64,000 bases of DNA from Rikenellaceae bacterium. Its GTDB lineage: Bacteria > Bacteroidota > Bacteroidia > Bacteroidales > Rikenellaceae. The DNA is taken from contig JAFTOX010000013.1 in NCBI GenBank assembly GCA_017463585.1, forward strand, positions 62,001 through 126,000, read 5' to 3'. Below the pieces are notes generated by a model. It worked only from the letters and a program-made list of their open reading frames with translations. It made no database searches and was not told the origin of the DNA. Position 1 is the first letter of the stretch, and every line of letters begins with the position of its first letter. Below, in pieces: positions 43,001 through 54,502 of the stretch. The translations under genes were made by a program, and so were the position numbers.

Positions 43001-44413
43001 ATGATCTCATTCGAAGAGTATGCCAAGGCGGTCTATCCGTTTCTGGACGTGACCCCATTTCATCAAACCTATTACCGTGTGCTTCAAATGTTTGCCGAGG
43101 GGCGCATACGCCGCCTGATCGTCACAATGCCACCACAGCACGGCAAATCGGTTGGTTCGACCACGCTACTGCCCGCCTATCTGCTCGGGCTCGACCCCGA
43201 CCTGCGTGTGGCGATTGCCTCCTACTCGGCCTCGCTCGCCAATAAATTCAACCGACGTGTGCAACGTATTATCGAATCAAAGGAGTACAACGAAATCTTC
43301 CCGCTGACGACAATCAAGCAGGGCGGCAAGCCCGCAAACTATATCCGCACGGCCGACGAGGTCGAGATCATCGGTCGGCGAGGCGAGCTGTTGTCCGTAG
43401 GTCGTGAGGGCGCGCTGACGGGCAACCGTGTCGATGTCTTTATCCTCGACGACCTCTACAAAGACGCGATGGAGGCCAACTCGCCCGTCACGCGCGAGAA
43501 CTGCTGGGAGTGGTACACCTCGGTGGTGCGTACGCGTATGCACAACCTCTCGCGCGAGTTGATTGTATTCACGCGCTGGCACGAGGAGGACCTCATCGGA
43601 CGCATAACCCAACGCGAACGAGTATTCGAGTTGAACGATTGGGCGCAGGTGGAGTCGATCGACCGCAACGAATGGTTGCACCTCAATTTCGAGGCGTTGA
43701 AAGAGTCGCTGCCCACGGCGCTCGATCCCCGTTTGGAGGGCGAGGCGCTCTGGCCCGAGCAACAAGATGCTGAGCTGCTGATGGCCAAGCGTAGGCTCGA
43801 CACCACCCGATTTGAGTGTATGTATCAAGGTCGTCCCGCACCACAGGGAGGATTGCTCTATGGCGATGGATTTGCACGCTACGACACCCTGCCGCGCGAA
43901 GTGGTACGCTGGGGCAACTACACCGACACGGCCGATATGGGCGACGATTACCTCTGCTCGATATGCTATGCGGTCGATGTCGATGGGGTGATCTATGTGA
44001 CCGATGTGGTCTATTCGCGCGAGCCGATGGAGGTGACCGAGGGTCTTGTGGCCGAGATGTTGCGACGCACACAGACTCGCCAAGCCGCCATCGAGAGCAA
44101 CAACGGCGGTCGAGGATTTGCCCGTGCCGTGCAACGCCTTGCACCCGAGGTGAAGGTCGAGTGGTTTCACCAAAGCGGCAACAAGGAGGCACGAATACTA
44201 TCGAACTCGGCTACGGTGTTGCACGCACTGCGTATGCCCGAGAATTGGGCTGCGCTGTGGCCCGAGCTCTACCAGCACCTGACCACCTATCGACGAATGT
44301 TCTCGGCCAATCGCTGGCACGACGCCGCCGACGTGGTGACGGGAATTGTCGAACGTGAGGTTATTGACCGCCACGATCGACGCGTGCGGCATATTTCGTT
44401 TGTGGGAAGGTAA
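43001..44413 (+). CDS. Phage terminase large subunit
   Basis: 470 residues, apparently complete. The N-terminal ATPase has Walker A MPPQHGKSVGS near residue 44 and Walker B VFILDDLY near 147. The C-terminal RNase H-like nuclease (Terminase_6C type) has YTDTADMGDDYLCS, ITDVVYSREP-like strands and AAIESNNGGRGFAR. The enzyme packages phage DNA. No portal, capsid or small terminase gene follows, so it is a remnant or has been kept for another reason. Confidence 0.9.
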   Translation: MISFEEYAKAVYPFLDVTPFHQTYYRVLQMFAEGRIRRLIVTMPPQHGKSVGSTTLLPAYLLGLDPDLRVAIASYSASLANKFNRRVQRIIESKEYNEIFPLTTIKQGGKPANYIRTADEVEIIGRRGELLSVGREGALTGNRVDVFILDDLYKDAMEANSPVTRENCWEWYTSVVRTRMHNLSRELIVFTRWHEEDLIGRITQRERVFELNDWAQVESIDRNEWLHLNFEALKESLPTALDPRLEGEALWPEQQDAELLMAKRRLDTTRFECMYQGRPAPQGGLLYGDGFARYDTLPREVVRWGNYTDTADMGDDYLCSICYAVDVDGVIYVTDVVYSREPMEVTEGLVAEMLRRTQTRQAAIESNNGGRGFARAVQRLAPEVKVEWFHQSGNKEARILSNSATVLHALRMPENWAALWPELYQHLTTYRRMFSANRWHDAADVVTGIVEREVIDRHDRRVRHISFVGR

Positions 44414-46096: not shown

Positions 46097-46633
46097 TTAG
46101 GCGTAAATCGCAATACCCGCAATAGCCGAAAGAACAATCAGCAGAATGGGATTGACTTTGCGAGCCGAGGCGACGAGCGTTGCGGCAAAGAGCACCCAGC
46201 TCCACGCATCGATAAAGTTCGGATCGTCGCTCTGGTGCGGGAAGATCAGCAGCAGAGCTGCCGCACCGATCATACCGATCACCACGGGACGCATTGCCGA
46301 CATCGCACCCGCAACGTAGCGATTCGAGCGCAGACGGAGATAGAAACGTGTGATGAGGATCATCAACGTCATTGCGGGCAGGCTCACAGCCAGCGTCGCC
46401 ACAACCGAGCCCCAAAAGCCCGCAACGGTATAGCCGATGTAGGTTGCCGAGTTGATAGCAATCGGACCGGGGGTCATCTGCGAGATTGCGATGATATCCG
46501 AGAATTGGCTCGCGGTGATCCACCCTCGTTCGGTAACAACCTCGTGCTGAATGAGCGACAGCATTGCGTAGCCACCACCAAACCCGAAGAACCCGATCTT
46601 CAAATAGCTCAAAAACAGTTGCAGGTAGATCAT
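46097..46633 (-). CDS. Chromate transporter half-protein (CHR family), second
   Basis: 178 residues, about five to six membrane helices. The CHR signature FFGFGGGYAMLSLIQHEVV and SQMTPGPIAINSATYIGY are intact. Short-chain CHR proteins work as pairs of one-domain subunits. The start overlaps the other subunit's stop by 4 bp. Actual substrate may be another anion; chromate efflux is the named activity of characterised members. Confidence 0.9.
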   Translation of the reverse strand: MIYLQLFLSYLKIGFFGFGGGYAMLSLIQHEVVTERGWITASQFSDIIAISQMTPGPIAINSATYIGYTVAGFWGSVVATLAVSLPAMTLMILITRFYLRLRSNRYVAGAMSAMRPVVIGMIGAAALLLIFPHQSDDPNFIDAWSWVLFAATLVASARKVNPILLIVLSAIAGIAIYA

Positions 46634-47175
46634 CGCTCGACGTGTTTTCGACTGTTATACAATTCGATAGCGACACCCACTCCCGCCGCAACGATTATCA
46701 ACCAGATGGGCGACACTCCACTCCACCATACAAACAGCGCAACGGCTGCCGCCAAAGCATATTTCCACGCCCCCATACCGCGCGAGAGCGACACGATGGG
46801 CGACACAATGAGTGCTACCACAGCAGGTCGCATACCCTTGAAGGCGGCATTGACATAGACATTTTCGCGGAACTGCGCGAAGTAGATCGCCACTATCAGT
46901 ATCACCGTAAATGCAGGCACCACGACCCCCAGCAGAGCCGCTAACGCACCTGCATAACCGCGCATTTTGTAGCCCACAAAGACCGACGTATTGAGCGCAA
47001 TCGGACCTGGTGCCGACTGAGCCAGCGTCAGCAGTTCGATGAACTCATCACGATCGACCCACCCACGACGGTCGATAACCTCGCGCTGGATAATGGGCAC
47101 CATCGCGTAGCCACCGCCAAAGGTGAATAGTCCGATCTTGAAGAACGAACCGAACATCGTGAGCAACTCTCTCAT
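46630..47175 (-). CDS. Chromate transporter half-protein (CHR family), first
   Basis: 181 residues. Signature LFTFGGGYAMVPIIQREVID and AQSAPGPIALNTSVFVGY. It forms the presumed heterodimer with the next gene. It begins only 6 bp after the NuoB/ferredoxin-like gene stop, so it is in the same transcription unit as the Ehr complex genes, an association I do not know from elsewhere. Confidence 0.9.
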   Translation of the reverse strand: MRELLTMFGSFFKIGLFTFGGGYAMVPIIQREVIDRRGWVDRDEFIELLTLAQSAPGPIALNTSVFVGYKMRGYAGALAALLGVVVPAFTVILIVAIYFAQFRENVYVNAAFKGMRPAVVALIVSPIVSLSRGMGAWKYALAAAVALFVWWSGVSPIWLIIVAAGVGVAIELYNSRKHVER

Positions 47176-47181
47176 CGTGTG

Positions 47182-47958
47182 CTATTTTTGAGTGTGATCC
47201 TCGCGTCGATCGCGCCCAATCAGATTCATCACCGCCTCGATGAAGATCATCGGGTGGGTCGGCGCACCGGGCAACCACAGATCGGGCGTGTGGCTCTCAT
47301 AGAACGAGCGATCGACCTCCGTACTCTCGGCATACAGACCTCCCGACACAGCCTCACTACCCGCCACAATCAGCACCTTCGGATCGGGCACAGCGTCGTA
47401 GCAAACTTGCAGAGCTTCGGCCATATTACGGCTCACAGGACCCGTAACCACCACTCCATCGGCGTGGCGTGGCGAGGCCACAAACTCAACACCATAGCGA
47501 CCGAAGTCGAAATTGACATTGCCCGTTGCGTTCAACTCCATCTCGACCGACGCATCGCCACCTGCCGACACCTGACGCAGTTTCAGCGCGTGGGCAAACA
47601 TCGCAGGAATCTCCTTGCGCACAGCCTCGCGCGTGAATGGAATCGAGCGGGTCGAGGTCGTAACGACCAAATCCTCGCGTCGTGTCGCACCAATGCGATA
47701 GTCGTTGGTGAAACGCACCGCCTGCGGAGCACGTCGTACGCACTCGCCACAGAACAGACAACGACCCATATCGAGCGTGAATGGAGCCGCCGTAATTGCT
47801 CCCGTCGGGCACATCGAGACCAACTCCTCGGCCGTCTGCGCATCGCACTCCGAGAGCTCGGGACGACCACGGAAGATCGCAGGCAGCTCGACCGCCTTCA
47901 AATCGGGAATATATTGTGAGCCGTGGCTCTTGAATACCTTTAACTTATTGAACAGCAT
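47182..47958 (-). CDS. Ferredoxin/NuoB-like fusion subunit of Ehr complex
   Basis: 258 residues. A ferredoxin-like N-terminus has Cys67, Cys70, Cys73 (CLFCGEC) plus Cys50 (MCPTG), enough for one [4Fe-4S] cluster. The fourth Cys of the second motif is Ala77. The C-terminal half (from ~110) aligns with NuoB/HyfI, but the cluster ligands are gone: LRQVSAGGDASVEMEL replaces the CxxC region, IVAGSEAVSGG lacks Cys, and LPGAPTHP replaces GCPP. It would link electron flow to the NuoCD-like subunit, yet seems unable to hold the N2-type cluster. Confidence 0.82.
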   Translation of the reverse strand: MLFNKLKVFKSHGSQYIPDLKAVELPAIFRGRPELSECDAQTAEELVSMCPTGAITAAPFTLDMGRCLFCGECVRRAPQAVRFTNDYRIGATRREDLVVTTSTRSIPFTREAVRKEIPAMFAHALKLRQVSAGGDASVEMELNATGNVNFDFGRYGVEFVASPRHADGVVVTGPVSRNMAEALQVCYDAVPDPKVLIVAGSEAVSGGLYAESTEVDRSFYESHTPDLWLPGAPTHPMIFIEAVMNLIGRDRREDHTQK

Positions 47959-47980
47959 AACTTTTTGCCAATTTTATTCG

Positions 47981-49501
47981 TTACAAATCGTGGCCGCAAT
48001 ACGACAGATTGAAGCTCTTGTTGCAGATCGGGAAATCGCTGATGCCCTCACTACGCACCGCAATCGCCAGCGCCAGCCAATTGTGCATCGAGGGATCCTT
48101 CACGCGGTAGCAAGCCACACGACCCTCGCCATCGGTTATGGCTACGTGGCAACACTCGCCACGCCAACCCTCGACCAGCGCCGTACTCAACTGATAAGGC
48201 GGCAACTTAACCTCCCACTGCGGAGCGGGCGAGCCCACCGAGCAATCGAGGTCCGTAAGCAGCGAGGTGATCGTATCGGCCGCCTGCAACACCTCACGAC
48301 AGCGCATCATCAGTCGTGCCATCACGTCGCCCTGCTCCTTGATAATGCTCTGATGTGCAATGCGATCGGTGAAGACACCCCACGGGTGCGAAACACGCAG
48401 ATCGCGCGCCACACCACTCGCACGTGCCGCTTGACCTACACCACCAATGCGCTGCATTTGCTGAGCATTGACAATTCCGCACTGCTCCATTCGCGACAGC
48501 AGCGACGGCGTGGTTTTGATATCGTGGCGCACCTCGTTATAGCGACGGCGAATCTCCTCGACATTCTTCAAGATCGTCGCACGCAGCTCATCGGTCAGCG
48601 GGAAATTCGTTCCGAACGGACGAATCAAACCTTTGCCAAAACGGTTGCCGCACCACAGCTGAGTAGTATTGATTGTCATCGTGCGCAGAGCCTCGCAAGC
48701 CACCTGACCCAACTGATAACCGACGTCCATACACAGCGCGCCCGTATCGGCAATGTGCATCGCCATACGCTCCAACTCCAACGCTACGGCACGCTCCACA
48801 TCGAGGTTGCCCGCCTTCGACGAATCGAACGAAGCCAACTTCTCGATCGTGCGCACCAATGCCGTGGTATGCGTTACGGCACTATCACCCGCGATACCCT
48901 CGGCCAGCAGCACCTGACGCAACAAGTTCTTCGAGGTTTCGATCTGTCGCTCGGCTCCGCGATGTTGGTATCCGAGCGAGATTTCGAGGTGCAAGACCTC
49001 CTCGCCATTACAGATAAAGCGGAACGCTCCCGGCTCGATGATACCCGCGTGAATCGGGCCCACATTGACCTCGTGCAACGAGGCACTCTCCATCTTATAG
49101 AAGGGATACTCATCCACCGTACCTGCGCGACGCGCACTACGCGAAGGCGCACGCAGAGGTTTATCCCACGGCATACCGTCGTAGCGGATTCCCCATCGTT
49201 CGGTCATATCGCGCTCGAAGGGGTGCATAGCCGCAAACTCCTTGGTCAGCGACGGAAGTTCCTCGTCGTAGTAATCGACATCGTAAGAGGCTACCTCGAT
49301 GGTATGCTCCTCGTCGTTCAAAATCATACACCACACGCGCAGACGAGTCTCCTCGACCGGCACTCCGAAGTAGTGCGCCACGTGGCACGCAGGGTTGCTC
49401 AATCGCTCGCGCACAGCCTCGAAAAATTCGGCATACGAGAGCGACGGAATCTGTCGCAGGTCGATGGCCGAGCCATTGTTATATGTTGTAAACCATTTCA
49501 T
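47981..49501 (-). CDS. NuoC-NuoD-like fused large subunit of Ehr complex
   Basis: 506 residues: NuoC-like part (1-150, HPFERDMTERWGIRYDG) and NuoD/hydrogenase large-subunit-like part (150-506, GPIHAGIIEPGAFRF, EVLHLEISLGYQHRGAE). The NiFe-binding RxCGxC motif is replaced by EGIAGD at 201-206. The C-terminus ends FPICNKSFNLSYCGHDL with Cys493 and Cys502 but no DPCxxC. It is therefore not a hydrogenase. This pattern defines energy-converting-hydrogenase-related complexes, whose substrate is unknown. Confidence 0.88.
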   Translation of the reverse strand: MKWFTTYNNGSAIDLRQIPSLSYAEFFEAVRERLSNPACHVAHYFGVPVEETRLRVWCMILNDEEHTIEVASYDVDYYDEELPSLTKEFAAMHPFERDMTERWGIRYDGMPWDKPLRAPSRSARRAGTVDEYPFYKMESASLHEVNVGPIHAGIIEPGAFRFICNGEEVLHLEISLGYQHRGAERQIETSKNLLRQVLLAEGIAGDSAVTHTTALVRTIEKLASFDSSKAGNLDVERAVALELERMAMHIADTGALCMDVGYQLGQVACEALRTMTINTTQLWCGNRFGKGLIRPFGTNFPLTDELRATILKNVEEIRRRYNEVRHDIKTTPSLLSRMEQCGIVNAQQMQRIGGVGQAARASGVARDLRVSHPWGVFTDRIAHQSIIKEQGDVMARLMMRCREVLQAADTITSLLTDLDCSVGSPAPQWEVKLPPYQLSTALVEGWRGECCHVAITDGEGRVACYRVKDPSMHNWLALAIAVRSEGISDFPICNKSFNLSYCGHDL

Positions 49502-49515
49502 AACCTATCGGAAAG

Positions 49516-50925
49516 CTAAAAATTAACGATTTGCTCGATCCACACCTTCAACCACTCGGGCATAGTCAAGCCCACCACAAACGCCACTGCCAGCAACGAG
49601 AATGCCGACCACGACAGCCACGTTGCGTGCTCCGACTTGCGCGTAGGACTCTGGTTGGGTTGGTAGCAGAGTTTGATCACACGCGAGAAGATCGAGTAGA
49701 TCACAATGCAGAGTAGCAGGAAGATCACCGCAACCAGCCACCACTGACCCTCGCCCATCGTCTGGCGCAGAATCATCAACTCCGACACGAACAGCGGCGA
49801 GGGCGGGAATGCCAACAGCGCCAACGCTCCCAACATCAGACCTGCCGCACCCACGCGGTTCAACTGCATATAGTCGCCCAAGCGGTTGATACGGTAGCCG
49901 TCGTAGATACTGCGCACCACGCCAATCTGCAAGAACATACTGCTCTTGATGAGTGTATGAGCCGCCACGTGCAGCACCGCAGCCCACGCTGCTACGCCAC
50001 CGATACCCAAACCGATCGCCGCGATACCCATATTTTCAACGGTCGAATACGAGAGGAATCGTTTGTAGTTATTCGTTCGTCGCAGGAACAGCGCACCGAT
50101 CACCAGCGACACCACACCCGCCAATACCAGCACACTCTGTACCCACTCGAACACCACACTTGCCGCCATCAATCGATAGACACGCAGAATAGCCACGAAA
50201 CCGGCATTGACCAACACCGTCGAGATCAGGCTTGCCGCAGGCGCAGGGGCCGCAAAGTTGGCATCGACACCGATCGTATAGAGCGGGAAGATCTCCATTT
50301 TACAGCTATAACCCGCCAGCACAAGCAGAAAGGCGATCTTCAAATAGAGCGGATTGCAGTGCGCAACCGCCTCACGCAGCGATTCGTACGACAGCGAGCC
50401 TTCGTGCGCCGCACTACTCAGAATGAGCACACCGAGGTATGCCATTGCGATACCCGTCGAGCAGACGAAGATATATTTCCACGTTGCCTCCAACGTCTCG
50501 GGCGAGCGACGGTGATAGATGATACCTGCCGCACAGATGGTCGTAGCCTCCAAGAAGATCCACGTAACAGCAATATTATTAGCGAAATAGACCGCCGAAA
50601 CTGCCGTGCATAGGAGCACCATCAGCATATTGTACAGACGAAATTCGGGCAGATTGTTGTCGCGCAGATAGTCAAACGAATGGACGAACGCAAATGGCGA
50701 CACGATGGCCATCAGCACCATAAAGAGCGTGCCCGTTGCATCGAACGTAAAGAATTGAGCCGACTCCACGCCTGCGCCCGCCGTTGCCGCCCACGCAGCA
50801 AACACGGCCTGCATTACGAAGAATACCGACGCAAAGCTGACCACCAATCGTCGTGAGCGCGCCAGTCCCGTCATTGCGGCCAACGCGATGGCCGCCACGA
50901 TATAATAGAACATTGTCATATCCAT
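49516..50925 (-). CDS. HyfF/NuoN-like antiporter subunit of Ehr complex
   Basis: 469 residues, about 13-14 membrane helices, proton-channel family related to NuoL/M/N and Mrp. Conserved features are the Glu in IFLEATTICAAGIIYH, Lys in SLVIGALFLRRTNNYKRFLSYSTVENMG, and HVAAHTLIKSSMFLQIG. It probably pumps protons or sodium. It lies 14 bp upstream of the large subunit and 4 bp downstream of the HyfE-like gene. Confidence 0.9.
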   Translation of the reverse strand: MDMTMFYYIVAAIALAAMTGLARSRRLVVSFASVFFVMQAVFAAWAATAGAGVESAQFFTFDATGTLFMVLMAIVSPFAFVHSFDYLRDNNLPEFRLYNMLMVLLCTAVSAVYFANNIAVTWIFLEATTICAAGIIYHRRSPETLEATWKYIFVCSTGIAMAYLGVLILSSAAHEGSLSYESLREAVAHCNPLYLKIAFLLVLAGYSCKMEIFPLYTIGVDANFAAPAPAASLISTVLVNAGFVAILRVYRLMAASVVFEWVQSVLVLAGVVSLVIGALFLRRTNNYKRFLSYSTVENMGIAAIGLGIGGVAAWAAVLHVAAHTLIKSSMFLQIGVVRSIYDGYRINRLGDYMQLNRVGAAGLMLGALALLAFPPSPLFVSELMILRQTMGEGQWWLVAVIFLLLCIVIYSIFSRVIKLCYQPNQSPTRKSEHATWLSWSAFSLLAVAFVVGLTMPEWLKVWIEQIVNF

Positions 50926-50929
50926 AGCA

Positions 50930-51559
50930 TCAATCCTTTACAGAGGTTAGTGAATCGGTATCATCGACCTTGATTCGATCGCCAATCTTGGTGAGGAACA
51001 TTCCGAGCAGCAGAATACTCATCACGATATCGAGCAGGATTGCCGTATTGATCAGTATCGGCATCTCGACACCCATCGCCATCGAGAAGAGGAACACACC
51101 GTTCTCGATCGTCAGGAAACCAACCAAATGAGCAAACAATCTTCGGCGCATTACGATCAGAATCAAACCGCTCAACAGCGCATACAACGACACGCAGAAG
51201 AATGCCTGATTGATCGAATCATCTGCCACCAAATAGGTGATGCAGGCACTTGCCACAAGAGCCACGATCGACATCACCAAACTGCCAAATTGCGAACGAC
51301 CTGCCGGCTGTACGCGGTTGATTTTGTTGTGTTTGATGATTCGTCGCAACATCATCGGCACCACGATTGCCTTGAAAATCAGCGTCTCGGTTACGACAAA
51401 CAGCAGATCGAGCCAATGTATCGAATGCAGTCGGAGCAGCGCGATCAGCAACAGCAGCCAACCCTGATAGGTCATCAGCGTAGCATAGTGGCGGAATCGC
51501 TCGGTTATCGACAGATAGACCAGCGTTACCACATAGAGTATAATGAGTGAAAGTATCAT
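50930..51559 (-). CDS. HyfE-like membrane subunit of Ehr complex
   Basis: 209 residues with about six membrane helices. It has the HyfE/NuoK-like pattern LVGFLTIENGVFLFSMAMGVEMPILINTAILLDIVMSILLLGMF, and FVVTETLIFKAIVVPMMLRRI, both typical of hydrogenase-4 component E. It is a small membrane-arm subunit next to the antiporter subunits. Confidence 0.88.
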   Translation of the reverse strand: MILSLIILYVVTLVYLSITERFRHYATLMTYQGWLLLLIALLRLHSIHWLDLLFVVTETLIFKAIVVPMMLRRIIKHNKINRVQPAGRSQFGSLVMSIVALVASACITYLVADDSINQAFFCVSLYALLSGLILIVMRRRLFAHLVGFLTIENGVFLFSMAMGVEMPILINTAILLDIVMSILLLGMFLTKIGDRIKVDDTDSLTSVKD

Positions 51560-51570
51560 ATCGTCTGAGT

Positions 51571-52485
51571 TTAGCTGATTTGAATGTTAAGCGTCAGCAG
51601 GTAGGCAACAAACAGCAGCAGAGCCGCCAATGCCGACACGGTTAGAATATAGGTTGTGTTGCGCACCAGCTTGCCGCGCGCCTGCGACGACTCGACAACG
51701 CCCACAATCACCGCCACCAAGAGCGACAACGGAGCCACCGTCCACCACTTGAAACACAGGGGCAACATCACTGCATTGGCAGCCAAAACCGCTAGCGCCG
51801 CACCCTTGAACCAATTTGCGCAGTGGATCATTGCCATATCAATGCCCGAATAGTCGAGCACCATAACCTCGTGGATCATCGTCAATTCGAGGTGAGTGCG
51901 CGGGTCATCGACGGGCACACGTCCCTGCTCGACCGTATAGACCTTAACGAGTACGTATGCCAGCAGCACCATCACGATAGTCATCTGCATATCCAGATCG
52001 CGCGCCACCGAGAAGATATCGGCAAACGACGTATAGCCACAAACCATTGCCAACGTAGCCACTACGGCAAACAGTGCAGGCTCAACCAGCGCACCATACA
52101 GAGCCTCGCGGCTTGCACCCATACCCTCGAAACTGCTACCCGTATCCATTGCTGCCAGCACCAGCGACAGACGTCCCAAACCGAGCAGATAGGCAAACAC
52201 AACCACATCGCCACGGAACGAGAGCAGCGGATCGAGGTTGCCGATCGGAATAAACAGCAGAGCCAGCAACGCCGAGCCCATATAGACTGCCGGAGCCACA
52301 CGGAACAGAATACTTGTCGTCGGGCTATAAACGCTGCCCTTGCGAGCCAGCAGAGCCACATTATGCAGGTGCTGCACGATCGAGGGACCGCGACGGCCAC
52401 TCAACACCGAGCGCACACGTGTTATCACACCACCAAGCAACAGCGCGATGGCGATCATAAGTATCGTATTGAATAACTCTTTCAT
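51571..52485 (-). CDS. NuoH/HyfC-like membrane subunit of Ehr complex
   Basis: 304 residues, about eight helices. It has RVRSVLSGRRGPSIVQHLHNVALLARKGSV near the N-terminus, the NuoH cytoplasmic loop with Arg and Pro, and RVPVDDPRTHLELTMIHEVMVLDYSG, the conserved Glu-rich loop. NuoH links the peripheral arm to the membrane arm in complex I and group 4 hydrogenases. Position in the operon is between HyfE-like and HyfB-like genes. Confidence 0.92.
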   Translation of the reverse strand: MKELFNTILMIAIALLLGGVITRVRSVLSGRRGPSIVQHLHNVALLARKGSVYSPTTSILFRVAPAVYMGSALLALLFIPIGNLDPLLSFRGDVVVFAYLLGLGRLSLVLAAMDTGSSFEGMGASREALYGALVEPALFAVVATLAMVCGYTSFADIFSVARDLDMQMTIVMVLLAYVLVKVYTVEQGRVPVDDPRTHLELTMIHEVMVLDYSGIDMAMIHCANWFKGAALAVLAANAVMLPLCFKWWTVAPLSLLVAVIVGVVESSQARGKLVRNTTYILTVSALAALLLFVAYLLTLNIQIS

Positions 52486-52492
52486 AGCCGCA

Positions 52493-54502
52493 TTAGATCA
52501 GATTAAGGATTGACAAAACAGCCACTATCAACATAAACAGCAGCGCATACGACACATAGCGCGAGATATTTCCCGTGCGCAGACGCATCACACGACGGTT
52601 GATCTGCGCCAGCAGAGCCGTCCACCACTCGTTCATCAGTCGTGACACCTTATCGCGGTGCTTGACCTCGAATTCGTGTACCGAGGGGAAGATCTCGTTC
52701 TTATCCACAGCCTCGCCCTTGCCCGTATCTTTGGTCAGCGACGACGCGATGCTCTGCAAACCCTCCGAGAACGACTCGCCCGTATATTGCATTCGCGGTG
52801 TGGGCTGCGTGAAACCACAACCCCACGTTGCACCCATTCGTACCGAACGATCGCGTTGAGCACGACGTTTGAGCAGATACAACGCAACCACAATCGCCAC
52901 GAGCAACCACGCTGTGAGCATTACGCCCTGCATTGCCTCGCTCATCGAGTGCGCATTGAACCACTCCAAACCTCGCTCCGACATCGGCACAAACGGTGCA
53001 GCCACCTTTGCCACCAAGCGGAAGACCGGCACGGGACACAGACCCACCACAAGGATTCCTGCCGCAGGGATTGCGCAAGCACCCAAACTGAACGTATCGG
53101 CCTCGCTCGCCTCGACCACCTCGTGGGTGCGCGGAGCTCCCAAAAAGACCGTTCCGAACAACTTGCTGAAAGTCAGCACTGCCAGACCACCAATCAGAGC
53201 CAAGCCGATCAGTCCGCACGCCGACGAAAGCACCTCGCTTCCGCCGCTAATACCGTCCAGCAATCCGAAATAGATCGTAAATTCCGACACAAAACCATTC
53301 AGAGGAGGCAGAGCACAGATTGCCACCGTCGCCAGCAGGAACAGAATTGCCGTTACGGGCATACTCTTGGCCAAGCCGCCGAACGTATCGCACGACGTCG
53401 AGTGGGTCTGAGCATAGATATTACCCGCACCGAAGAACAACATCGACTTGAAGAACGAGTGGTTGATCGTATGCAGCAGCGCACCCGCCATTCCGCACAG
53501 TGCGAGGGTGTCGTTGCCGTTGCTCTTGCCGATCAACGCTGCACCCACACCGATCAGAATGATACCGATGTTCTCCATACTCGAATATGCCAGCAGACGT
53601 TTGATATCGTTCTGCAACGCTGCGAGGATAATGCCCCACAGACCCGTTACGATACCCAGCGCCAGCACAATCGCACCCGCAGGCATCATCACTGCCGAGC
53701 CTGCGAACTCGACGGGCAGCGCAAACGCCACTCGGATAATACCGTAGATACCCGTTTTGATCATCACACCCGACATTATCGACGATACGTGCGACGGTGC
53801 TGCGGGGTGAGCCTCAGGCAACCACGAGTGCATCGGGAACATACCCGCCTTCATACCGAAACCCACCACAAACAGTGCGAACAACGGCAGCGGTGCGTAT
53901 GCAGACATATAGCCACTCAGTGCCGCAAATGTAGCCTCACCCGTACGGGCATAGAGCAGTGCAAAACCTGCCAGCAGAGCCGCAAAACCGATGTGCATCA
54001 TCACCAGATAGGACAACGCTGCACGCACCGTTTTGCGCTTATCGGCATCGAAAATAATCAGCAGGAACGAGGCGATGGTCATCATCTCCCAACAGAACAG
54101 GAAACAGAAACCACCCACCGCCGTAACCACTCCGATCATCGACACGTAGAGCACAACGAGTGAGGTGTAGTGCAACGAGAAGTGTGTTGCAGGTTTCTTG
54201 TCGAGATAGTGCGCCAGATAGCCACGCGAGTAGATCGTCGTAGCCACTGCCGCCAGCGAAATGATGATCGAGAAGAGTGCCGACAGACGATCCATCGTAA
54301 TCGCCTCCACTCCAAACGCCACCGACGCTCCCTGCCACAGAGTGAGCGGTGTGCCCTCGACAAGCACCCCAATAGCCGCCACGCAGACCGCTACGGCCAC
54401 CGCCCCCACAATACCGACTGCCGTCCAGACCTTGGCACGCAACGGAGCGGCAAAGATCAGCACAGCGGGCAGGATCAACAGAATCAAATAGATAATGGGC
54501 AT
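52493..54502 (-). CDS. HyfB/NuoL-like antiporter subunit of Ehr complex
   Basis: 669 residues, about 15-16 helices. It shows FCWEMMTIASFLLIIFDADKRKTVRAALSYLVMMHIG with the conserved Glu, FGMKAGMFPMHSWLPEAHPAAPSHVSSIMSGVMIKTGIYGI, and LLAYSSMENIGIILIG. All are signatures of proton-translocating NuoL/M-type subunits. First Ehr gene in transcription order, 27 bp after rsmE. With two antiporter-type subunits in the operon, ion pumping is likely. Confidence 0.92.
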   Translation of the reverse strand: MPIIYLILLILPAVLIFAAPLRAKVWTAVGIVGAVAVAVCVAAIGVLVEGTPLTLWQGASVAFGVEAITMDRLSALFSIIISLAAVATTIYSRGYLAHYLDKKPATHFSLHYTSLVVLYVSMIGVVTAVGGFCFLFCWEMMTIASFLLIIFDADKRKTVRAALSYLVMMHIGFAALLAGFALLYARTGEATFAALSGYMSAYAPLPLFALFVVGFGMKAGMFPMHSWLPEAHPAAPSHVSSIMSGVMIKTGIYGIIRVAFALPVEFAGSAVMMPAGAIVLALGIVTGLWGIILAALQNDIKRLLAYSSMENIGIILIGVGAALIGKSNGNDTLALCGMAGALLHTINHSFFKSMLFFGAGNIYAQTHSTSCDTFGGLAKSMPVTAILFLLATVAICALPPLNGFVSEFTIYFGLLDGISGGSEVLSSACGLIGLALIGGLAVLTFSKLFGTVFLGAPRTHEVVEASEADTFSLGACAIPAAGILVVGLCPVPVFRLVAKVAAPFVPMSERGLEWFNAHSMSEAMQGVMLTAWLLVAIVVALYLLKRRAQRDRSVRMGATWGCGFTQPTPRMQYTGESFSEGLQSIASSLTKDTGKGEAVDKNEIFPSVHEFEVKHRDKVSRLMNEWWTALLAQINRRVMRLRTGNISRYVSYALLFMLIVAVLSILNLI

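Follow-up and report, generated by a model that had tools for sequence, protein, structure and literature searches.

The window, as we call the whole 64,000-nucleotide stretch of Rikenellaceae DNA analysed here, encodes on its minus strand (47182-54502) a six-subunit, hyf-type Ehr complex that appears to have been cut off from electron transfer and retained as an ion-translocating machine, a reading to which we assign a probability of about 0.5. Because the NiFe site, the N2-type cluster, and both quinone-headgroup residues are lost, we conclude from the sequences that the peripheral arm would no longer carry electrons to the NuoD/NuoH cavity, in line with a preliminary description of this DNA in which the electron path to the membrane arm was said to appear broken. 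The complex most likely moves ions via a non-redox or redox-gated mechanism.

All six Ehr genes were identified through Pfam and NCBIfam profile matches, with their order kept and all on the minus strand (Table 1). Their co-encoded set of complex-I/group-4 type subunits (NuoB, NuoCD, NuoH, two antiporter-like subunits, and HyfE) is that of an Ehr complex. The preliminary description had placed six genes at 46097-54502; the six Ehr genes are real, but the span holds eight, the operon ending in two Chr-family genes (46097-47175) that went unmentioned.

Table 1. Genes and cofactor-site features of the Ehr operon, in window coordinates
Feature	Position	Strand	Evidence or detail
HyfB-like antiporter-type subunit, 669 aa	52493..54502	-	Pfam Proton_antipo_M 5e-55; NCBIfam hydrogenase 4 subunit B 1e-156
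HyfC/NuoH-like membrane anchor, 304 aa	51571..52485	-	Pfam NADHdh 5e-24; top PDB match FHL subunit 4
HyfE-like subunit, 209 aa	50930..51559	-	NCBIfam hydrogenase 4 membrane subunit 1e-10
HyfF-like antiporter-type subunit, 469 aa	49516..50925	-	Pfam Proton_antipo_M 3e-36; NCBIfam hydrogenase 4 subunit F 4e-68
HyfG/NuoCD-like large subunit lacking NiFe ligands, 506 aa	47981..49501	-	Pfam Complex1_49kDa 2e-27
A204-G205-D206-S207 replacing first NiFe CxxC	48881..48892	-	HMMER alignments to FHL HycE and Nqo4
S500-YCGHD-L506 C-terminus replacing second NiFe CxxC	47984..48004	-	Alignment
Ferredoxin (HyfH-like) and NuoB (HyfI-like) fusion, 258 aa	47182..47958	-	Pfam Oxidored_q6 8e-16, Fer4-type matches
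C50, C67, C70, C73, ligands of the sole remaining [4Fe-4S] cluster	47740..47811	-	Invariant in 119/119 relatives
Former N2-type site	47263..47556	-	D135 47554-47556, V138 47545-47547, E202 47353-47355, A232 47263-47265
Chr-family half-transporter A, 6 bp past fusion gene	46630..47175	-	Pfam Chromate_transp 4e-51
Chr-family half-transporter B, start overlaps half-transporter A stop	46097..46633	-	Pfam Chromate_transp 2e-53

The NuoCD-like large subunit has neither of the CxxC motifs found in the large subunit of [NiFe] group 4 hydrogenases. In the alignments, hydrogenase C1/C2 correspond to A204/S207 (AGDS) and C3/C4 to S500/G503 within the C-terminal SYCGHDL, and the protein ends at L506 without a protease-cleaved tail. 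Residues G205 and D206, together with S500, Y501, G503, D505, and L506, are each at least 97% conserved among relatives. In the HMMER alignment, I155 and G205 stand in place of His38 and Tyr87 (Thermus Nqo4 numbering), which we take to be the quinone-site residues of complex I. We also looked for displaced yet conserved Cys, which the preliminary description had raised as a possible objection, and no such set is present. Many relatives have Ala or Ser instead of Cys502, which is therefore not a displaced ligand, C269 and C284 both vary outside the window's family, and C164, the sole invariant candidate, is a single Cys that cannot hold a cluster. The AF2 model of NuoCD, which is poor at residues 114-178 and 486-506, matched FHL HycE (7z0s_E) with a Z score of 33.9 and an rmsd of 2.7 over 423 aligned residues.

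Comparison of the NuoB domain with MbhJ (HMMER) and with E. coli HyfI, which carries all four NuoB-type Cys, revealed that ligand positions C1-C4 are occupied by D135, V138, E202, and A232. The domain has neither the tandem Cys of the complex I N2 cluster nor the ligands of the proximal [4Fe-4S] cluster of the [NiFe] group 4 hydrogenase small subunit. Also absent is the NuoB-type cluster beside the former active site, which is usual in relatives though it does not formally define Ehr complexes. The D-V-E-A site of the window's lineage thus contains no Cys, unlike most replaced forms, which retain Cys138. The AF2 model of the fusion protein (pLDDT 91.8) matched FHL HycG (7z0t_G) with a Z score of 15.0 and an rmsd of 2.7 over 144 aligned residues. 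In the ferredoxin part, the Cys that are kept make up one full set, the CP of motif 1 and the C-x2-C-x2-C of motif 2, presumably of the N6b type as judged from Thermus Nqo9. As this set is both complete and invariant among the relatives, the second cluster was lost cleanly. Together, these alignments agree with the preliminary description, which had assigned the locus to Ehr from a NuoD part without either NiFe Cys motif and had noted a NuoB-like domain without cluster ligands and ferredoxin Cys for only one cluster.

That description had also asked how often the NuoB Cys are missing, and whether most Ehr complexes might be equally Cys-free. The site is replaced in 108 of 173 full-length relatives and all-Cys in 64, with no mixed forms and one truncated row in neither class. 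Recurrence of the identical pattern at 108 loci excludes chance, frameshift, and assembly or sequencing error, and local decay in the window's genome was rejected because the Cys loss is the fixed state of a large clade. Most Ehr complexes are not Cys-free, as the 64 full-length sister proteins with all four Cys demonstrate; the four Cys are likewise kept in 19/19 inspected Pseudomonadota NuoB-like proteins. Since the Cys are present in E. coli HyfI as well as in sister Ehr complexes, the Cys-free state is derived. It is also more than mere loss, given that the replacing residues are themselves conserved: every replaced form has Asp/Glu135 and Asp/Glu202, with Asn or Ala at 232. The NuoB-ferredoxin tree, built with the motif columns removed, needed one change (branch 96), and the NuoCD tree was compatible with a single origin (AU p 0.77), indicating that the Cys-free state arose once, in the ancestor of one large clade. 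The clade consists of Bacteroidota, plus Spirochaetota that acquired the complex by transfer. None of the replaced forms has the complete ligand set of the outer ferredoxin cluster, which 35 of the 57 classified Cys forms keep.

The substitution rates indicate that strong purifying selection acts on the peripheral arm, with a dN/dS of ~0.05-0.25 for the NuoB-ferredoxin fusion and NuoCD, similar to the membrane subunits. About a quarter of the sampled genomes of the window's order (68/295) carry the complex, gut Alistipes relatives among them. NuoCD was found in all 20 tested genomes that have the fusion protein. In three of these the genes lie apart, and a stand-alone fusion protein was rejected there because NuoCD is encoded elsewhere in the same genomes.

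The residue conservation of the membrane arm is that of a complex-I-type, proton-translocating arm. As in E. coli HyfB, the HyfB-like subunit has E139, K218, K301, E310, H348, K352, and E407 conserved, and the acidic string of HyfC/NuoH consists of E127, E135, E186, D193, D194, E200, E206, and D211. Within the clade, conservation is 95% or higher for the proton-path Lys, Glu, and His residues and for the NuoH acidic string, and these residues match those of E. coli Hyf, a few NuoH positions excepted. HyfF is the membrane subunit with the largest difference between Cys-free and Cys-bearing forms. Because the arm keeps all of its proton-path residues, the ion channel or pump with a non-classical drive put forward in the preliminary description is a likely role, although a plausible rather than an established one.

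Sister Ehr complexes (PMC6349859, PMC7894505, PMC10284858, PMC7304191) are likewise built from complex-I/group-4 subunits with a NuoD-like protein lacking NiFe ligands. They differ in retaining all four NuoB-type Cys and often both ferredoxin clusters, whereas the window's clade has lost the N2-type and outer ferredoxin clusters. Close Ehr relatives occur in Melainabacteria, Spirochaetota, Lentisphaerota, Ignavibacteriota, and Nitrospirota. The gene order hyfB-C-E-F-G-H/I is shared with E. coli hydrogenase 4/formate hydrogenlyase (Hyf, Hyc; PDB 7z0s), which gave the top PDB matches for HyfB, HyfC, and NuoCD and was among the best for NuoB. In contrast to Hyf and Hyc, the window's complex has no NiFe site and no proximal cluster, its HyfH and HyfI are fused, and hyfA, hyfD, hyfJ, and FdhF are missing. 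With respiratory complex I (Nuo) it has the NuoB, NuoCD, NuoH, and antiporter-like folds in common, but not the tandem-Cys N2, the His38/Tyr87 pair (here Ile/Gly), or an NADH or multi-cluster module. We found no description of the NuoB Cys loss in the literature searched; an earlier mention is possible, for example by Marreiros and colleagues (2013), whose work is reportedly the key Ehr survey.

The mechanism we propose builds on a membrane arm that has its full set of proton-path residues and on a peripheral arm of normal fold. The lone [4Fe-4S] cluster would find no redox partner close enough for tunnelling in the NuoD/NuoH cavity, so its role would be structural or that of a redox sensor. 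The NuoB/NuoD/NuoH junction would open and close depending on the protonation of the D/E135-D/E202 acid pair or on a bound ligand, and this motion would drive or gate the movement of H+ (or Na+) through the arm formed by HyfB, HyfF, and HyfC. The complex would thus be a gated, membrane-potential-linked ion translocator rather than a redox pump. The more specific claim, that across Bacteroidota ions are moved or gated by protonation or a ligand without electron transfer through the arm, following a single replacement of the N2-type site by an acid pair, is tentative, and we place it somewhat short of even odds. Against disconnection, a cofactor or unlinked subunit could restore the electron path, the conserved [4Fe-4S] cluster suggests some redox role, and replaced forms with Cys138, unlike the window's, might conceivably hold a D-C-D-N metal site.

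A complex that is still redox-driven is an unlikely alternative. Electrons would pass from reduced ferredoxin to the lone cluster and on to an acceptor in the cavity by way of a cofactor that escaped recognition; candidates are a mononuclear metal bound at an Asp/Cys/Asp/Asn site and, if another subunit supplied it, a flavin or quinone. Such a route accords with the one invariant [4Fe-4S] ligand set and the strong selection on the proteins, and the two acids of the replaced site, with Cys138 and Asn232 in most relatives, could bind a metal; however, the D-V-E-A site of the window's lineage offers no Cys, profile searches and alignments gave no NiFe, quinone-ligand, or flavin motif, and no additional subunit recurs beside the loci. 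Among the neighbours of ~50 loci, we found no recurring oxidoreductase or dehydrogenase partner. The notion that the locus is a decayed, functionless relic of a hydrogenase or Ehr complex is barely credible: several catalytic motifs are indeed lost, but the low dN/dS contradicts decay, as do retention throughout the clade, invariant residues in peripheral and membrane subunits, and the partner kept alongside in 20/20 genomes.

A somewhat fainter prospect than continued redox drive is that the former active-site cavity has taken up a non-redox reaction linked to the membrane potential. Handling of inorganic carbon would be the most plausible such reaction, and the Chr pair would then transport bicarbonate. 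The NDH-1MS and DAB/MpsAB carbon-uptake complexes are a precedent for NuoL-like arms running on non-redox chemistry, but here the peripheral arm is NuoB/NuoCD and no such partner adjoins the operon. The Chr pair follows the operon at 11 of 20 loci of the window's family, SulP genes adjoin it at five loci in two separate lineages, and in autotrophs bicarbonate is carried by a Chr-family and SulP-family transporters (PMC10880623). The conserved new acids at the former cluster site would also suit this idea, as would the family's lack of DabA (Pfam PF10070; 0/101 genomes), which sets it apart from DAB systems, and of beta-CA in 88/101 genomes. On the other hand, Chr and SulP proteins transport other anions as well, the Chr link is limited to one family, carbonic anhydrase presence shows no pattern of complementarity with the Ehr complex, and no carbonic-anhydrase-like zinc site was recognised.

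The genome context also favours an ion translocator disconnected from electron transfer. All 58 near-complete genomes of the window's family encode Rnf/NQR-type subunits, so redox pumping is covered elsewhere. Complex I and the Ehr complex tend to alternate in this family (both in 4 genomes, Ehr only in 24, Nuo only in 16, neither in 15; Fisher p 0.003, uncorrected for phylogeny), and this alternation suggests overlapping roles in ion movement.

For complex I, the central question is how electron transfer at cluster N2 and the quinone site can drive proton channels that lie far away. In the window's clade, evolution appears to have removed the electron path once and cleanly but to have kept the channels and the junction, with selection still strong, and a sister clade retained the path. 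Comparing Cys-free with Cys-bearing forms would separate the needs of the membrane arm from those of redox chemistry and would allow testing whether a complex-I-like machine can run without redox chemistry. For the window's order, these data point to a complex in bioenergetics or transport that has gone unrecognised.

The Ehr operon (Table) has the same gene order as the E. coli hyf operon, except that hyfA and hyfD are absent and hyfH and hyfI are fused. The preliminary description had placed the complex at 46097-54502; this span does cover two Chr-family genes of the chromate/bicarbonate type, which end the operon behind the fusion gene, but the accompanying text omitted them. The host genome is Alistipes-like, the closest named matches to the fusion protein being 61-63% identical. 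It encodes no 49-kDa-type subunit other than the Ehr NuoCD and therefore no complex I; its two PF03116 proteins are the count expected from one Rnf and one NQR pump. The terminase gene lies among ordinary chromosomal genes, toward glutamyl-tRNA synthetase on one side and a nucleoside symporter on the other.

Features in the Ehr region of the window
Feature	Coordinates	Strand	Remark
HyfB, HyfC/NuoH, HyfE, HyfF, NuoCD, ferredoxin-NuoB fusion	54502 to 47182	minus	in that order
Chr-family half-transporter	46630-47175		after fusion gene, gap 6 bp
Chr-family half-transporter	46097-46633		overlaps preceding Chr gene
Phage-type terminase large subunit (Pfam Terminase_6N)	43001-44413		

Alignment placed Ala-204 and Ser-207 of NuoCD at the first NiFe cysteine pair and Ser-500 and Gly-503 at the second. 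Thermus Nqo4 His-38 and Tyr-87, the quinone headgroup ligands, correspond to Ile-155 and Gly-205. In the NuoB domain, the four cluster-ligand positions are occupied by Asp-135, Val-138, Glu-202, and Ala-232, whereas E. coli HyfI has all four cysteines in the same alignment frame. The ferredoxin domain retains one complete ligand set (Cys-50, Cys-67, Cys-70, and Cys-73), found in 119 of 119 relatives, which in Thermus complex I binds N6b, the cluster adjoining N2. Cluster G1 in the small subunit of E. coli formate hydrogenlyase occupies the place of N2, and every relay step in that enzyme is shorter than 14 Å (PMC9474812); therefore, loss of the cluster at this position should interrupt the electron chain.

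Ehr complexes without NiFe ligands are already known (PMC6349859, PMC10284858, PMC7304191). Loss of the NuoB cluster in them is not described in the literature we searched. Sampling covered 20 loci of the family, 80 named loci, and additional draws at order and phylum level, and yielded 173 full-length fusion proteins: 64 keep all four NuoB cysteines, 108 have the replaced form, one is truncated, and none is mixed. In all 108, positions 135 and 202 are acidic and position 232 holds Asn or Ala. Most have Cys at 138, where the window's lineage has Val or Ile. The complex was found in 68 of the 295 genomes sampled from the order, and the best 30 loci there all have the replaced form. Sister complexes that keep the cysteines come from Melainabacteria, Spirochaetota, Lentisphaerota, Ignavibacteriota, Nitrospirota, Pseudomonadota, and some Bacteroidota.

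The fusion-protein tree, built after stripping every motif column, requires a single change of NuoB state (support 96). The NuoCD tree shows two, the second due to one long-branched row (G201), and constraining the replaced forms to one clade raised the likelihood (AU p 0.77). Replaced forms from five Spirochaetota genomes nest within the Bacteroidota clade, and were therefore likely acquired by horizontal transfer. One Spirochaetota genome, G1206 (locus L229), has two fusion-protein genes, at least one of them Cys-free, which may reflect transfer or a binning error. The full outer ferredoxin ligand set is present in 0 replaced forms versus 35 of 57 classified Cys forms; because some Cys forms also lack the outer cluster, it was probably lost before the NuoB cluster.

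Between close pairs of the replaced clade, dN/dS ranged from 0.05 to 0.25 in the fusion protein and from 0.07 to 0.26 in NuoCD, close to the values of the membrane subunits, and NuoCD was found in all 20 tested genomes with the fusion protein, including those with the genes apart; a dead remnant is nearly excluded. The AlphaFold2 model of the fusion protein (pLDDT 91.8) has the HycG fold (Z 15.0, rmsd 2.7, 144 aligned), and that of NuoCD the HycE fold (Z 33.9, rmsd 2.7, 423 aligned), being weak at 114-178 and 486-506. HyfB Glu-139, Lys-218, Lys-301, Glu-310, His-348, Lys-352, and Glu-407, HyfF Glu-126, Lys-209, Lys-288, Glu-297, His-323, Lys-327, and Glu-382, and the NuoH acidic string are at least 95% conserved, with mostly identical residues in E. 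coli Hyf. Across loci L068-L140 and L033-L052, HyfF separates the Cys-free from the Cys-bearing forms at 22 columns with good conservation in one of the groups, far above the 3 to 7 of the other membrane subunits.

An unseen cofactor could still maintain an electron path, which we consider unlikely; no recurring oxidoreductase adjoins the operon in other lineages. Somewhat less likely still is non-redox chemistry such as carbon handling, weakly suggested by the neighbors because bicarbonate transport is known for one Chr-family and several SulP transporters (PMC10880623). The Chr pair adjoins the operon in 11 of 20 family loci, and SulP permeases do so in five loci of two lineages. At locus L041, the pair remains beside the NuoB-ferredoxin gene though NuoCD is on a different contig. 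Upstream of HyfB, eight Cys-bearing loci (L113, L124, L127, L133, L134, L136, L137, and L139) encode a helix-turn-helix/PTS EIIA protein, possibly a regulator, preceded in three of them by a co-oriented SulP permease gene. In raw genome counts, the Ehr complex and complex I tend toward mutual exclusion within the family and alternate inside several genera.

As judged from sequence, the complex lacks the electron path, retains its full proton arm, and is under strong selection. We give a probability of about 0.5 to a complex that moves ions without electron transfer through the arm. The two acids where N2 once sat could replace the charge that reduced N2 supplies, which would make the junction responsive to protonation or a ligand, and the lone [4Fe-4S] cluster might act as a sensor or structural part.
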